Shown here piece by piece: positions 14,431 to 48,524 of a stretch of 64,000 nt of DNA. The DNA is from an uncultured Coriobacteriaceae bacterium (GTDB lineage: Bacteria; Actinomycetota; Coriobacteriia; Coriobacteriales; Atopobiaceae). The number at the start of each line of letters is the position of its first letter. Position 1 is the stretch's first letter. The position numbers and the translations under genes were made by a program. The notes beneath the pieces were generated by a model that was given only the letters and a program-made list of their open reading frames with translations, ran no database searches and was not told where the DNA came from. The stretch spans positions 62,001 through 126,000 of the forward strand of contig CACYWP010000003.1 in assembly GCA_902778135.1 (NCBI GenBank), read 5' to 3'.

Positions 14431-14591
14431 GTTGTCTGCGTTTATCAGAACGCCCGTCTCTCGCCTACGCAAACAAGGCCGTATTCTGCGCAAGCAAAAG
14501 CGCAAACAACAAAAACCGCAGCCCCGGAGCCTATCAAAGCGCAGACAAAAGCGCTTTTCGATCCTCCAAGGCTGCGGATTGCGCAGACAAC
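14431..14591 (+). repeat. Five-box intergenic element, copy A
   Basis: 161-bp element in the 309-bp gap between aroB and the peptidase gene, which holds no other gene. Boxes: GTTGTCTGCG at 14431, GTATTCTGCG at 14481, then in the other orientation CGCAAACAAC at 14501, CGCAGACAAA at 14540 and CGCAGACAAC at 14582. Start-to-start spacing is 50, 20, 39 and 42 bp. An extra box, CGCAAACAAG, lies at 14468, a position also occupied by related sequence in copies B and D. AAAGCGC/GCGCTTT around box 4 can form a small hairpin that may end the aroB operon. See copies at 28917, 37562 and 47033. Confidence 0.85.
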
Positions 14592-14608: not shown

Positions 14609-15715
14609 CTACTCGGCGCGTGACGCACACCACGCGGCGACGTGCTCGGCGATGCGCTCGTCCGAGACCGCGGCCAGGCGCACGCGGCCCAGCTGTCGGG
14701 GCAACCCCATCAGGAAGCGGTTCGAGCGCTCGAAACGCACGTCGCGCACCGCAGCTATCAGGGCATCCGGGTCGAGGCTGGTCGAAACCATGGGCAGCTC
14801 GAGGCTGTCCAGCAGCTCGTCCTGCGCCAGCACGTCATCGACTTCCAGCAGGCCCTCGCCACAGGCAAGACGTGCCTGGAATCGCAGGGCCTCGGCACGT
14901 GCGGTCGAGGGTGCCACGTCCGCGACCAGCCTCTGCAGCGCACCGGCAAAGGCCTCCCCATAGCTCAGGGACTGTCGGGTTGCCAGCGCGGTCGACGAGA
15001 GCATCTTCCCGCGCAGCTTCACGGTGTCCTGCAACTGGTCGAAGAGCACCTCTCGATTTCCCGCACAGATGTCCTCGGTGCGGTCCCACAGCCGCGAGAA
15101 TGCAGCCTCGGAGTCGCACATGGCCGTCACAACCATCAGCACGCGAGCCATCATCGCATCTTCCGTGGGCTGGTCCGCGAGGGCGACGTCCGCGTCGAAC
15201 AGCACATGCTTGACGCTTGGCCGCACCTGCAGCAGGCGCGAGCGCGAACCGACGTCGATGCCCCGGGGGGACACCGCGGCCTCCACCAGGGCGGTCTGAC
15301 CCGTGGGCACCATCACCAGCGGCGTGCCGCCGCACCACTGCGAACAGGCATACGACGCCAGCGAGCATACGTCCACGTCACCCACGGCAACGACCAGGTC
15401 ATCGGCCGTGATGAGGGTCTCCCCCAGGTCGCAGAGGAGCCGGCTGGCAGACGCCACCGTGCGCGCGGCAGGCCCCGACGGCACGTCGACGCGCTCGCTC
15501 GTGTATCCGGCATCGCTCAGGTGGCGACGCAGCAGCTCCACCACGTCCTCGCCGACGCCGGAACCCACCACCAGCGCGCTGGCACGGGGCCGTCCCACGG
15601 CACCCTTCAGCACCGCCGTGCATTCGTCGAGAACGCCGGTGCCCAGACGGACGTCGCACGACCCTCCGGGAAGCGATACCCACTGGCGGGCACGAACCGC
15701 TGGCTTGTCGCTCAC
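14609..15715 (-). CDS. 3-dehydroquinate synthase-like protein lacking the usual active-site motifs
   Basis: 368-residue AroB-family protein directly after aroK. Overall layout matches dehydroquinate synthase, but key motifs are lost. The NAD-loop GGGxxxD region reads AVGDVD (110-115), the GGKTGVN lysine segment is replaced around residues 147-157 (AAVSPRGIDVG), the zinc-ligand glutamate in the usual AEVIK motif aligns with R191 (ARVLM), and the LNxGHTxGHA histidine motif reads LSYGEAFAGA (250-259). The protein is therefore unlikely to bind zinc or catalyse the normal reaction. Start taken at the GTG that overlaps the aroK stop (GTGA) with an upstream GAGAGGGG; a GTG 18 bp upstream is possible. 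The intact frame and operon position suggest it is still used. Confidence 0.75.
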   Translation of the reverse strand: MSDKPAVRARQWVSLPGGSCDVRLGTGVLDECTAVLKGAVGRPRASALVVGSGVGEDVVELLRRHLSDAGYTSERVDVPSGPAARTVASASRLLCDLGETLITADDLVVAVGDVDVCSLASYACSQWCGGTPLVMVPTGQTALVEAAVSPRGIDVGSRSRLLQVRPSVKHVLFDADVALADQPTEDAMMARVLMVVTAMCDSEAAFSRLWDRTEDICAGNREVLFDQLQDTVKLRGKMLSSTALATRQSLSYGEAFAGALQRLVADVAPSTARAEALRFQARLACGEGLLEVDDVLAQDELLDSLELPMVSTSLDPDALIAAVRDVRFERSNRFLMGLPRQLGRVRLAAVSDERIAEHVAAWCASRAE

Positions 15716-16263
15716 AGCAGCCCCCTCTCCCACAGCAGGTTGCCCGCCTCTGCGGCGACCTGCTCGAAGTCCTTGTTCCTGATGTCTATGGTGATGTCCG
15801 CCTCGCGCTGGTAGAGCGGGCGACGATGCGCGTAGAGCGCGGCGGTCTGCTCCGTCGTGCCCAGGTCGGGGCGACGCTCGGGGTGCTGAATCTGACGGAG
15901 CGAGTCCTCGAGGCTGCCATCGAGATAGACGATGGTGCCCATCTCATGCATCAGCTTGCAGCACTGCTGCCGCTCGACGATGCCGCCACCACAGCTGACC
16001 AGCAGGGACTTGCGCTTGGACAGCTCGTGGAGGGCACGCTCCTCCCCCAGCCGGAACGCCTCCTCGCCGTCCTGCTCGAAGATGTCGTTGACCGACTTGC
16101 AGACCAGGCGCTCGACCAGGCGGTCGGTGTCGATGTAGGCGCGGTGGAACAGGCGACCGAGGTTGCGCGCCAGCGTCGACTTGCCCGCACCGAGAAAGCC
16201 CACGAAGAAGACGTGGTCACAGCCTTCGTGCACGACGTAGCCCCGTGGTGCCACCGCACTCAC
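15712..16263 (-). CDS. aroK: Shikimate kinase
   Basis: 183-residue enzyme phosphorylating shikimate in aromatic amino-acid synthesis. P-loop GFLGAGKS is at residues 22-29, the substrate-binding DTD motif at about 45-47, the SCGGGI shikimate-binding motif at about 90, and the lid arginines in HPERRPDL. The GTG start overlaps the yqeG stop (GTGA), and its own stop overlaps the aroB-like start in the same way. This makes a tightly coupled chain of genes. Confidence 0.92.
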   Translation of the reverse strand: MSAVAPRGYVVHEGCDHVFFVGFLGAGKSTLARNLGRLFHRAYIDTDRLVERLVCKSVNDIFEQDGEEAFRLGEERALHELSKRKSLLVSCGGGIVERQQCCKLMHEMGTIVYLDGSLEDSLRQIQHPERRPDLGTTEQTAALYAHRRPLYQREADITIDIRNKDFEQVAAEAGNLLWERGLL

Positions 16264-27631: not shown

Positions 27632-28879
27632 ATGCCCCTATCGCTGACCAACCGCTGTGCCCCCGACATCCCCTGCGCGCTCTCGCCCCAGACCGCCACC
27701 CTGGTCGCACGGGCCCGCTCGGACGGCAAGCCCAGCCCCTTCGCGACCCCCGACATCGCCGCCCTGCGGCGCGACCCCACCCATGACGTGGGCACGTCCC
27801 TGCGCCCCTCCTTCGTCCGCGACACCGAGAAGATCCTGCACATCCCCGCCTACAACCGCATGAACGGCAAGACGCAGGTCTTCTCCTTCCGCGCGAACGA
27901 CGACCTGTGCCGCCGTGGCCTGCACGTCCAGCTGGTGGCGCGCGTCGCCCGCGACATCGGGCGAGCCCTGGGGCTCAACCTCGACCTCATCGAGGCCATC
28001 GCGCTGGGTCACGACATCGGCCACACGCCCTTCGGGCATGCGGGCGAGCGGTTCCTGAACGACATCTATCACCGCCGCACCGGACGCTGGTTCTTCCACA
28101 ACGTGCAGAGCGTGCGCGTGCTGGACGTCCTCTACGGGCGCAACATCTCGCTCCAGACGCTCGACGGGGTCATCTGCCACAACGGCGAGTTCGAGCAGCA
28201 GCGCTTCGAGACCAGTGGCCTTGCGGGGTTCGACGAGTTCGACCGCGTGGTCGCCGGTTGCTGGGAGCGGGGCGACGACGCGATCGGGCGCCTGCGCCCC
28301 ATGACGCTGGAGGGCTGCGTCATGCGCGTCTCGGACATCATCGCCTACGTGGGGAAGGACCGCCAGGATGCCATTCGCGCGGGCATCTGCGACGAGGACA
28401 GCTTCGACGACGGGCTGGGCGGGGCATACAACAGCTGGGCGCTCGCGGCGTTCACCGCGGACATCATCGAGCACAGCCTGGGCAAGGACCACCTGGAGAT
28501 GAGCGAGGCGGGCTTCGCGGAGATGCGGCGCGCCAAGCGCGAGAACTACGAGAAGATCTACGGTGCCAGCGAGGTCAACGGCGAGTTCCCCGAGGCGGTC
28601 GCCACCCTGTTCGCCCTGCTCTACGACCATGAGCTGGAGGTGCTCCGTCGCGGGGACCAGGATGCGGCGATCTTCCGCCACCACATCGAGCCGCTCTCGC
28701 GCCACCTCTCCCACTATGGCTGCGGCTACGCATGGGAGGACGACCCCGACCAGTGCGTCTGCGACTTCATCAGCGCGATGACCGACGACTACTTCATGGC
28801 CACCTGCGAGGAGCTCTTCGAGGAGGCTAGGTCGCTGTTCCCGCGCAGGTCCTACTTTGAGGGGTCGGTTCGGGCCTAG
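27632..28879 (+). CDS. dGTP triphosphohydrolase-like HD domain protein
   Basis: 415-residue HD-superfamily phosphohydrolase. The sequence LHVQLVARVARDI and the ALGHDIGHTPFGHAGE motif supply the H..HD metal ligands; a later conserved aspartate lies in RVSDIIAYVGKD. The family removes triphosphate from dGTP or related dNTPs. Length is close to that of the shorter dgt-like proteins. Start ATG preceded by GAGGAGG. The gene runs toward element B and the convergent GNAT gene. Confidence 0.87.
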   Translation: MPLSLTNRCAPDIPCALSPQTATLVARARSDGKPSPFATPDIAALRRDPTHDVGTSLRPSFVRDTEKILHIPAYNRMNGKTQVFSFRANDDLCRRGLHVQLVARVARDIGRALGLNLDLIEAIALGHDIGHTPFGHAGERFLNDIYHRRTGRWFFHNVQSVRVLDVLYGRNISLQTLDGVICHNGEFEQQRFETSGLAGFDEFDRVVAGCWERGDDAIGRLRPMTLEGCVMRVSDIIAYVGKDRQDAIRAGICDEDSFDDGLGGAYNSWALAAFTADIIEHSLGKDHLEMSEAGFAEMRRAKRENYEKIYGASEVNGEFPEAVATLFALLYDHELEVLRRGDQDAAIFRHHIEPLSRHLSHYGCGYAWEDDPDQCVCDFISAMTDDYFMATCEELFEEARSLFPRRSYFEGSVRA

Positions 28880-28916: not shown

Positions 28917-29077
28917 CTTGTCTGCGTTTTGAAAAGCAGACCTATCGCCGCTACGCAGAGAATGCCCTAGTCTGCGCAGCCGTGAACGCAGACAACGCAA
29001 ACCGGTGCTCGGGGGACGCGCAAAACGCAGACAAAAGCGCCTGCTCTGGCGAATCCGCCGAGAAGAGCGCAGACTAC
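28917..29077 (+). repeat. Five-box intergenic element, copy B
   Basis: 161-bp element between the convergent dGTPase-like and GNAT genes; its last 4 bp overlap the GNAT stop region. Boxes: CTTGTCTGCG at 28917, CTAGTCTGCG at 28967, CGCAGACAAC at 28987, CGCAGACAAA at 29026 and CGCAGACTAC at 29068. Spacing is 50, 20, 39 and 42 bp, the same as copy A. A related CGCAGAGAAT sits at 28954, matching the extra box of copy A. Only one box is exact, so this is the most diverged copy. Confidence 0.85.
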
Positions 29078-36306: not shown

Positions 36307-37545
36307 ATGGCTCGGACAAAATTCAACAAGGCGGAGATCAGCTGGATTCTCTACGACGTGGGCAACTCCGCCCTCGTGTTGCTTGCCACCAGCGTCATCC
36401 CCATCTACTTCAACTACCTCGCCGCCAAGGACCCGGCGGTCCAGGACGTGGCAGTCGGGGCCTGGGGACTGGCCGAGACGATAGCCTCGCTCATCATCGC
36501 CATGCTCATGCCCATCCTGGGGTCGGTCGCCGACATGCAGGGCATGCGCAAGAAGTTCATCATCGGCACCGTCGGCGCGGGCGCCGTCGCCACCGTCGCG
36601 ATGGGATTCCCCAGCACCTGGCTGCCGTTCCTGGTCGTCTACGTCATCTCCTCGGTGATGCTCAACTCGTCGTTCGTGTTCTATGACGCGCTGCTGGTCG
36701 ACGCGACGACCGACGAGCGCATGGACGAGGTCTCCTCGCAGGGCTTTGCCTGGGGCTACGTCGGCAGCTGCATCCCCTTCATCGTGTGCCTGCTCATCGT
36801 GCTCAATGCCGACAAGCTGGGGCTGGGCATGCAGACCGCGATGCTCATCGCCTTCATCATCACCACCATCTGGTGGGTGACCTTCACCGTCCCCATGCTG
36901 CGCAACGTCGAGCAGAAGAGCTACAAGCCCTACGAGCCCCATGCCATCGCCAACGCCATCAGGGGCATCGGGGCGACCCTTCGCAACATCTGGGCGGACG
37001 AGGCCCTGCGCTGGTTCATCCTCGCCTACTTCTTCTACATCGACGGCGTGCACACCGTCATCAAGATGTCGACCAGCTATGGGGCCAACCTGGGCATCGC
37101 AGGCACCCAGCTGGTGCTGGCGCTGCTCGTCACCCAGTTCGTCGCCTGGCCTTCGTCGATCGTCTACGGACGCCTCGGCCGCAAGGTCGGCACCAAGAAG
37201 ATGATCCTGGTAGGCATCATCGGCTACTTCTGCATCACGTTGTTCGCCGCCTTCTTCCTGCGCACCGCGCTGGAGTTCTGGATCCTGGCCATCTGCGTCG
37301 GCCTGTTCCAGGGCGGCATCCAGGCGCTCTCGCGCTCGGAGTTCGGCAAGCTCTGCCCCAAGGAGCATGCCAACGAGTACTTCGGCTTCTTCGACATCTT
37401 CGGCAAGTACGCGGCCATCATGGGCACGGGCCTGGTGTCCGCCTTCACGTTCCTGACCGGCAACCCCTCGCTGGGCGTCCTGTCGATCGCCGTGCTGTTC
37501 ATCTGCGGCTTCGTGATCATGCTCAAGGTACCCGAGCACCGCTAG
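36307..37545 (+). CDS. MFS transporter, UMF1/Atg22-like family
   Basis: 412-residue integral membrane protein with about 12 predicted spans. The opening WILYDVGNSALVLLATSVIPIYFNYL and the loop GSVADMQGMRKKFII match the UMF1 (Atg22-like) branch of the major facilitator superfamily. Conserved LSRSEFGKLCPKEHANEYFGFFDIFGKYAAIMG near the end (in parts) is a hallmark of that branch. Substrate unknown; fungal Atg22 exports amino acids from vacuoles. Start ATG with AAGGGGG. Confidence 0.88.
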   Translation: MARTKFNKAEISWILYDVGNSALVLLATSVIPIYFNYLAAKDPAVQDVAVGAWGLAETIASLIIAMLMPILGSVADMQGMRKKFIIGTVGAGAVATVAMGFPSTWLPFLVVYVISSVMLNSSFVFYDALLVDATTDERMDEVSSQGFAWGYVGSCIPFIVCLLIVLNADKLGLGMQTAMLIAFIITTIWWVTFTVPMLRNVEQKSYKPYEPHAIANAIRGIGATLRNIWADEALRWFILAYFFYIDGVHTVIKMSTSYGANLGIAGTQLVLALLVTQFVAWPSSIVYGRLGRKVGTKKMILVGIIGYFCITLFAAFFLRTALEFWILAICVGLFQGGIQALSRSEFGKLCPKEHANEYFGFFDIFGKYAAIMGTGLVSAFTFLTGNPSLGVLSIAVLFICGFVIMLKVPEHR

Positions 37546-37561: not shown

Positions 37562-37721
37562 GTTTTCTGCGTTTTGCGAGGGCTCCCGGTGGAAAGCCTC
37601 CGAAATCCCCCGTTGTCTGCGTTCAAATTGCGCAAACAACGGGGGCTACTTTTTCTGAAGCTTCCAAAGCGCAAACAACGAGCGATGAGCCCGCCTTTTA
37701 TGCCGGACGAACGCAGACAAC
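37562..37721 (+). repeat. Five-box intergenic element, copy C
   Basis: 160-bp element between the MFS gene and the helical-repeat gene. Boxes: GTTTTCTGCG at 37562, GTTGTCTGCG at 37612, CGCAAACAAC at 37631, CGCAAACAAC at 37670 and CGCAGACAAC at 37712. Spacing is 50, 19, 39 and 42 bp. Four boxes are exact. Boxes 2 and 3 with flanking CCCCC/GGGGG form the stem of a terminator (37607-37645). Confidence 0.88.
37607..37650 (+). terminator. Terminator of the MFS gene, built from boxes 2 and 3 of element C
   Basis: CCCCCGTTGTCTGCG pairs with CGCAAACAACGGGGG over 15 positions with one mismatch, followed by CTACTTTTTCTG. It is the only one of the four elements where boxes 2/3 are clearly followed by a U-tract. 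Confidence 0.75.
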
Positions 37722-47032: not shown

Positions 47033-47193
47033 GTTGTCGGCGCTTCTTTCCGCCAGAAGTGGCTCCCGAAGTGCGTTGTCTGCGCTATCGCCACTCGCAC
47101 CAACTCATCTAGCGTTGTTTGCGCTTCTGACGGCGCAAACAACGGCATTTTCTGCGCAGCACCTCGCCCGGCCCCTCGACAAGCGCAGACAAC
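47033..47193 (-). repeat. Five-box intergenic element, copy D (inverted)
   Basis: 161-bp element read on the minus strand. In that direction the boxes begin at 47193 (GTTGTCTGCG), 47143 (GTTGTTTGCG), 47123 (CGCAAACAAC), 47084 (CGCAGACAAC) and 47042 (CGCCGACAAC). Spacing is 50, 20, 39 and 42 bp, identical to copies A and B. Four boxes are exact. A related CGCAGAAAAT lies at the extra-box position (47147-47156). Boxes 2 and 3 form a perfect 12-bp stem but no U-tract follows. Confidence 0.88.
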
Positions 47194-47200
47194 TTGCGTC

Positions 47201-48292
47201 TTACCTGTTCTCGATGTGCGAAATCCCCTTCAAGGTGATGCGCATGCTCCCATCGGGCTCGCGGTCGAAGGAGATGAGCTCGGGACGCTGGGCAAATTCG
47301 GACGGGAAGGTGATCTCGATGCCCGTGTCGGTGCGGATGCGATGGCTCTTCGTCATGCGGTTGGCGGCACTACGCCGCACAGGGACCTCCTCGGGCAGAC
47401 GCTCCTCGCGGGCACGTCGCTCGAAGCTCTCCCGCATCTGGGGGGCATCCTCGAACACTCGCTCGCCCACCTCCTGAGGCATGACCACCTCGCCCATCTC
47501 CGCACGCTCCGCGACGTACGCCTTTGCCTGCGACACGACGACCGCTGGCGTCAGACCATACTCCTCCGCCACGTCCTCCACAATCTTGGTGACGCTGGAG
47601 ATGACCTCGCGGCTGGAGGCCTGGGTGGTGCACTGCAGCAGCCCGTCAGGGATGATGTAGGAGTCACGGCCCGCGATGGAACGCGCGCGGTCGCAGAAGC
47701 TGATGGCCAGGGTGTCGGCATCGACGACGAGATAGGACTCGACCTTCTGCGTGGGATTGGGTAGGGCGGCATCGGTGCGCACGACGTCATTGGCGCTCTG
47801 TCCGTCGACGCTGCGCAGGTCGTGCACGAAGGCCTGCTTGCGCGGCAGCAGGATCACCGCGAACTTGCGGGCGGGCGGCGCGTCGTAGGCGTCATCGCAA
47901 GCCGCCTTGGCCAGCGCATCTCCCACAGCGGTCCCTGCCGCCGCCGCGCGACCCGCCACGTCGTCGGTGTCCTCGAAGTCCGCGACCAGCACGTCGCATT
48001 GCCCGGGGTCGTCGCTCTTGCGCAGCTCCTCCCAGAAGTACAGCCCTATCTCCTGGGACAGCGCGACGAACTCCTCGCGCCCTGCGAAGTAGTCCCCGAT
48101 CTTCTCGGCAAAGGCACTGCCCTCACAGAACTCCCCATGCCGGCTCTCGGGGCTCGACGAGACCTTGCGCAGATGTCGCTGCACATAGGAGCGCGTCGGG
48201 CGCTCGGACAGGTCCAGCTCGCGATCGGACAGGTACGTGCCCCCGGTCTCGAAGTCGAAGACGTGCAGAATCGCGTTGCGCACCTTGAGCAT
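47201..48292 (-). CDS. Nucleoid-associated protein, YejK/NdpA family
   Basis: 363 residues. It starts MLKVRNAILHVFDF, has the DLRSVDG and middle-region AVILLPRKQAFVHDL typical of the family, and a C-terminal part with TGIEITFPSEF and MRITLKGISHIENR. YejK is found with nucleoids in E. coli; the role of Gram-positive members is unclear. Start ATG at 48292 follows a GGATGG; MVAMLKV at 48301 is an alternative. It ends 7 bp from element D. Confidence 0.8.
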   Translation of the reverse strand: MLKVRNAILHVFDFETGGTYLSDRELDLSERPTRSYVQRHLRKVSSSPESRHGEFCEGSAFAEKIGDYFAGREEFVALSQEIGLYFWEELRKSDDPGQCDVLVADFEDTDDVAGRAAAAGTAVGDALAKAACDDAYDAPPARKFAVILLPRKQAFVHDLRSVDGQSANDVVRTDAALPNPTQKVESYLVVDADTLAISFCDRARSIAGRDSYIIPDGLLQCTTQASSREVISSVTKIVEDVAEEYGLTPAVVVSQAKAYVAERAEMGEVVMPQEVGERVFEDAPQMRESFERRAREERLPEEVPVRRSAANRMTKSHRIRTDTGIEITFPSEFAQRPELISFDREPDGSMRITLKGISHIENR

Positions 48293-48524
48293 GGCTACCA
48301 TCCGATGGTCGAAGCGGTCCGCGCGACGGGCGCGGCGTGCCGAAACAGGATAGCGCAAGCCCGGAGCCAACGCTCCGGGCATCGTGGGTCACCCGCCCTG
48401 GGGACGCGCCCGCCGGCTGGCCAGCCGGCACGCCTTGCCCCACGACTCTTGGCAGACAGGCCATCTACCTGCGCTTTTCACAAGGTACGTACAAGTGGGT
48501 TTCTCATTCGCGGACGACTCATGC

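Follow-up and report, generated by a model that had tools for sequence, protein, structure and literature searches.

The window, that is, the whole 64,000-nucleotide stretch of DNA that was analysed, contains four intergenic copies of an element built from short boxes. Copy 1 (14431..14591, plus strand, 161 bp) adjoins a minus-strand gene (14609-15733), 17 bp past its 3' end. Its boxes begin at 14431 (unit position 0, forward), 14468 (position 37, inverted, CGCAAACAAG), and 14481 (position 50, GTATTCTGCG, a half box), followed by three inverted boxes at 14501 (70), 14540 (109), and 14582 (151). A central 29-bp palindrome (14465..14493; family consensus CTACGCAGAATACGnCGTATTCTGCGTAG) covers unit positions 34-62. 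Copy 2 (28917..29077, plus strand), with box starts at 28917, 28954, 28967, 28987, 29026, and 29068, is flanked by convergent genes, an HD-domain gene ending at 28879 and a GNAT gene ending at 29074.

Copy 3 (37562..37721, plus strand), which starts 16 bp past the stop of an ATG22/MFS-like gene (36307-37545), is atypical and an exception within the family: at 160 bp it is one base short, and it has no +37 box, the boxes present being at 37562, 37612, 37631, 37670, and 37712. Its +50/+70 palindrome, CCCCCGTTGTCTGCG...CGCAAACAACGGGGG, is followed by TTTTT, giving a terminator-like hairpin plus T5. Copy 4 (47033..47193, minus strand) is inverted, with boxes at 47184 (0), 47147 (37), 47134 (50), 47114 (70), 47075 (109), and 47033 (151). 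Separated from it by 7 bp is the 3' end of a gene (47201-48382) resembling that for NA37, a 37-kD nucleoid-associated protein; this neighbor may be an idle coincidence or a lead to the box-reading protein.

The original prediction, made on the window, had placed these four copies correctly in coordinates, orientation, and spacing, and its statement that no exact box occurs elsewhere in the window also holds, as all 12 exact matches to GTTGTYTGCG/CGCARACAAC fall within the four copies. It had counted five boxes with an extra related box at +37; the layout stands, but the unit has six boxes, and the one at +37 is half of the 29-bp palindrome that it forms with +50. Likewise, all four copies are real, but the family is much larger.

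The source genome (G000) comprises 3,174,536 bases (3.17 Mb) in 50 contigs, and copies were gathered from it with a pattern for box pairs, a search for the box, and models based on sequence alone that drew on 4, and later 29, copies. The pattern and model searches yielded about 42 full-length copies at 35 intergenic sites, and there are two partial copies (C35:1154, truncated, and C11:96123, partial and near a contig end). A single box, GCGCARACAACG, searched with one mismatch gives 86+88 matches versus 8+15 for a reversed control, whereas in the window the box alone with two mismatches gives 131 matches versus 106 expected, which is barely above chance; what stands out is therefore how the boxes are arranged. 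Scored with a gapless weight matrix derived from the genome copies, three of the window copies reach 129-146 bits and paired copies 107-154 bits, against about -93 bits at the best unrelated position in the window. The scores are bimodal, that is, copies are either intact or absent, and half-decayed units are not seen (copy 3 excepted). The copies found in the genome scan hold one spacing, and the claim of a fixed layout was not refuted.

In 41 copies, the six 10-bp boxes lie with exact spacing at positions 0 (forward), 37 (inverted), 50 (forward), and 70, 109, and 151 (all inverted), and these copies align gap-free over 161 bp, with a 1-bp shift of the last box in four. The fuller site is 14 bp long (AAA-R-CGCARACAAC), and position 0 holds GTTGTCTGCGTTT. 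Boxes 0 and 151 form the inverted ends of the 161-bp unit, which has no room for a transposase gene. The palindrome has boxes 37 and 50 as its arms; its positions 44 and 52 read A/A in 15 copies, T/T in 14, and A/T or T/A in only seven (Fisher p=0.0006), so that as a rule one arm, and only one, is a full box.

The intervening DNA behaves very differently from the boxes. Among the 41 gapless copies, column information is ~1.5-2 bits in the boxes versus ~0.1 in the spacers, and whereas box identity is 0.83, spacer identity between copies is 0.295, a random level (0.313 is expected from column composition). The most similar spacer pair (0.474) falls below the column-shuffled maximum (0.494), and no recent duplicates were found among the G000 copies by spacer identity. 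The spacers are thus as unrelated as had been claimed, and recent duplication does not explain the copies. The further proposal that selection acts on the sequence of the boxes as well as on their distances is strongly supported by the gapless copies, the random spacers, and the relatives described below: only box sequence and geometry are preserved, and in G000 the constraint probably continues.

All 43 copies checked are intergenic according to our own codon-usage gene calls. Thirteen of the 35 sites lie between convergent genes, 17 between tandem genes, and five between divergent genes; for comparison, 3 of the 28 long intergenic regions of the window are convergent. At tandem sites, the element is nearer to the 3' end in 16 of 17 cases (medians of 36 vs 110 bp), and its orientation is independent of gene direction. 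The genes beside the copies are varied and mostly of housekeeping types; among the families of 68 neighboring genes, no transposase appears in the 25 of 124 families listed.

Relatives were sought in 18 genomes of the genus, a single representative per species, several of them incomplete. The layout occurs in six of the 18: G000 (~42 copies), G016 (25), G014 (~16), G008 (4), G004 (3), and G006 (2). Model searches found no full layout outside the genus, either in the family (140 genomes) or in a sample of the order (299 genomes); matches in G122, G038, and G334 proved to be different repeats and were rejected. The +50/+70 pair pattern gave 14 scattered single matches in unrelated phyla among GTDB representative contigs, which is consistent with chance, and searches of viral_contigs gave 1 and 0 matches.

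Each species spells the boxes in its own way: CCGCAGACAAC in G016, CGCAATAAAC at the two right-hand boxes in G014, GTACAGACAAA in G008, GCATACAAA/CACCTACAA in G004, and CACCGACAAC in G006, where boxes lie at 0/52/71/109/151. Across species, the offsets are 0, 35-38, 49-52, 108-111, and 150-153, and the step between the last two boxes is exactly 42 bp in all units measured in the six species, a descriptive result, since in the four minor species the measuring motifs were read off those same units with a ±3 bp search. No box is present at position 70 in G016 and none is apparent there in G014. In G016, 23 of 24 units have boxes exactly at 0/38/52/110/152, with a box identity of 0.91-0.94 versus a spacer identity of 0.51-0.56 (up to 0.83 in some pairs); this spacer similarity implies recent copying there and younger units.

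Units are often paired. In G000, complete units form seven close pairs, and an eighth pair includes a partial unit; in all of them box 151 points inward, and the pair gaps (42, 44, 44, 77, 86, 107, and 191 bp) are in helical phase with one another (R=0.86), with p=0.002 for a turn of 10.5 bp and p=0.04 when the length of the turn is scanned. G016 has 12 inverted pairs, likewise facing inward, with an outer length of 379-381 (eight pairs) or 348 (four pairs), classes that differ by 32 bp, or three turns, and these pairs carry a ~38-bp outer inverted repeat. Over the outer ~25 bp after box 0, the arms within a G016 pair match each other better than arms of different pairs do (p=0.001); together with the spacer similarity, this shows that copying or arm-to-arm conversion has taken place there. 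The three pairs in G014 have the opposite arrangement, with box 0 inward; pairing is therefore common, but its direction is not universal, which is a poor fit to a simple transposon with a left end and a right end.

Some positions persist between species. Five of 13 G014 sites share an intergenic region with a G000 element (C3:99562, C19:58921, C8:97063, C8:98968, and the C16 pair), with the same orientation at the four single sites; one G016 pair also sits at the C8:98968 site. Two of the three G004 sites are shared with G000, but flipped. At shared sites, the spacers do not align, even though the flanking genes are 73-87% identical. Two further candidates for sharing with C7:70816 were rejected, G014:C28 because it flanks the shared gene on the opposite side and G016:C63 because it is too distant.

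One spot deserves separate mention. In a comparison of ten congeners, the intergenic region after the stop of orthologues of the MFS-like gene (36307-37545) holds repeat families that differ by species, TGTCCCCGATGCACG (G004), GTGTCAGGGGGACGTATAATTTGACAC (G011), GACGCCACTTTTGGTACCCC (G006), and AAGGGACACGCCC (G016), and G008 has a gene for a RAYT-like Y1 transposase there. This spot is an apparent hot spot for intergenic repeats, and re-insertion is therefore possible at some of the shared sites.

In our reading, to which we give a probability of about 0.5, each unit of this repeat family is a rigid set of sites recognised by a dedicated DNA-binding protein that evolves together with them, probably one that resembles a transposase or was domesticated from such a protein. 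A multimeric DNA-binding protein is suggested by the rigid distances, the palindrome with one complete arm, the phased pairs, and the species-wide re-spelling of the boxes. The five to six sites of one unit would bind a single multimerising protein, their spacing would fix the bound subunits in one three-dimensional complex, and two units would be able to associate in inverse orientation with matching helical phase. Most likely, the family started out as a dispersed non-autonomous element, or is one even now, read by a transposase- or recombinase-like protein or its domesticated descendant; it would spread by copying, as is visible in G016, while the G000 copies would have been constrained for long enough for all spacers to randomise. 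A mobile origin is favored by the rapid box turnover, the patchy presence (6/18), and the copying in G016, whereas continuing constraint is favored by the absence of decay and the positional persistence in G000. Against mobility, G000 has no recent copy, unlike a normal mobile family. The multi-subunit protein-binding platform of the original prediction remains the best fit, but neither a candidate reading protein nor an autonomous element was found among the listed families of neighboring genes.

The ends of the transposons Tn7, Mu, and IS21 and the arm sites of lambda attP are similar in design: they too consist of several short sites whose order, orientation, and spacing are fixed over ~150 bp, and the transposon ends are also paired and inverted. 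Such arrays occur once per element, beside a transposase or integrase gene, whereas here there are ~42 solo or paired units without such a gene, and pair orientation varies by species. The likeness of this fixed array of putative sites to a multi-site transposon end or att site is one of geometry only.

A host platform for chromosome architecture or regulation, with no transposition involved, is an alternative that we regard as somewhat unlikely. A genus-specific nucleoid or loop-forming protein would bind the units, bridge the pairs, and organise the chromosome or insulate gene ends. The orthologous sites kept with their orientation, the lack of decayed copies, the helical phasing of pairs, and the placement by gene 3' ends (16/17 tandem sites; 13/35 sites convergent) all speak in its favor. 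On the other hand, patchy presence combined with rapid box change between sisters is unusual for a core system, related units have been copied to new sites in G016, and copy numbers vary widely (about 42, 25, 16, 4, and fewer).

An ordinary miniature element is improbable. MITEs are defined by terminal inverted repeats, a length of 50-500 bp, and the lack of a transposase gene (PMC10969869, PMC3049150), and the unit has all three properties; like the Correia, ERIC, and Chunjie-type MITEs (100-400 bp), it is intergenic, occurs in tens of copies, has inverted termini, and carries no gene. On this reading, the family was duplicated and is decaying now, with the boxes as terminal and subterminal repeats, and its size, its intergenic place, and the ~38-bp outer inverted repeat in G016 would agree. 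However, copies of a MITE can be aligned from end to end, have target-site duplications (TSDs), and include many that are decayed, whereas this element aligns only at its boxes and distances: lengthwise homology is absent in G000, where spacers are random, and partial in G016 (0.51-0.56). Decay should also strike boxes and spacers alike and leave fragments, yet the boxes are intact, the spacers are saturated, and G000 has only two partial copies. No convincing direct flank repeat that would represent a TSD was seen at any offset tested in G000 or G016. For G000, the decaying-MITE reading is largely refuted.

It is very improbable that the element is a structured RNA or a bidirectional transcription terminator. 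A terminator-like hairpin with a T-run is present at +50/+70 in copy 3, G014:C30, and G006:C276, but the T-run is absent from most copies, and an orientation unrelated to gene direction also argues against this reading. RNAalifold, stacked-pair Z scores, and mutual information revealed no base-pair covariation across the family, and spacer-spacer duplex energies gave no same-copy complementarity above that of shuffled pairings; although a conspicuous stem between spacers can be drawn in some individual copies (e.g., 14431), the family-wide V2/V3 complementarity is not significant (p values of 0.12-0.19). In the facing boxes 50 and 70, the C/T and G/A states combine independently (14, 11, 9, and 7 copies), and C.A and T.G combinations are both common, so neither strand would pair well. 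Palindrome positions 44 and 52 are actively non-complementary, again contrary to RNA pairing, and the window has no Rfam match to the element, its sole match being a tRNA. The original suggestion of a structured RNA with conserved repeats is therefore not supported.

Most improbable is mobilisation by a RAYT (TnpA-REP) transposase, as in REP/BIME-type elements. REP families and RAYT-like genes abound in the genus, in some cases at the same post-stop site, and REP/BIME sequences are likewise intergenic, near gene 3' ends, in inverted pairs, and in species-specific families. The element, however, is a 161-bp unit with six sites and not a hairpin of 20-40 bp, its consensus has no GTAG/GGAG/CGTC foot, the one Y1 transposase match in G000 is of IS200 size (164 aa) with no ~260-aa RAYT, and G014 has none at all.

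BOX elements of Streptococcus pneumoniae are also modular, ~160 bp long, intergenic, and present in many copies, but in contrast to the element, each of their modules is a conserved stretch of ~50 nt for which an RNA fold is predicted, and the number of modules varies (PMC3049150). The interspersed repeats known from bacteria are recognised by their sequence or RNA fold, whereas this element is recognised by geometry, and ordinary repeat finders miss it because its spacers are random and its boxes are only 10 bp long. We found no description of such an element in the literature, and it appears to be previously undescribed.

Beyond the rigid site array as such, we tentatively entertain the possibility of an undescribed class of chromosomal element: dozens of rigid nucleoprotein platforms with multiple sites, scattered over the chromosome, which pass on nothing but site sequence and geometry, which are held in place beyond the point at which spacers can be aligned, and whose spelling is replaced in concert in each sister species. 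If true, this class would amount to a bacterial geometry code for higher-order protein-DNA assembly. If one protein reads the boxes, the ~42 copies and five sister species form a data set of compensatory evolution between protein and site, and the element may reveal a new transposase or nucleoid-organising system. The element shows that conservation of spacing alone can be a detectable genomic signal.

Several smaller observations were made along the way. In G122, from another genus of the family, contigs C19 and C3 carry a palindromic repeat of ~125 bp (GGCGTTTTTCGGGACTTGTCGGCGG...CCGCCGACAAGTCCCGAAAAACGCC), the interior of which is conserved (GCGCAAACAGAGG). In G334, from another family of the order, a composite repeat (C11:88178) combines CACCGACAAC-type and TTTTCATCCA boxes in alternating orientation; the likeness to the G006 box hints at a wider superfamily. 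Two units of G014 that lie 2 kb apart (C1:128337 and 130439) are identical over ~50 bp in the center but have different outer spacers, which resembles the outcome of gene conversion. In the G004 and G008 units (3-4 copies each), positions 0, ~50, and ~109 seem to have one spelling and positions ~37 and ~151 another, and these two box classes may suggest two reading proteins or domains.
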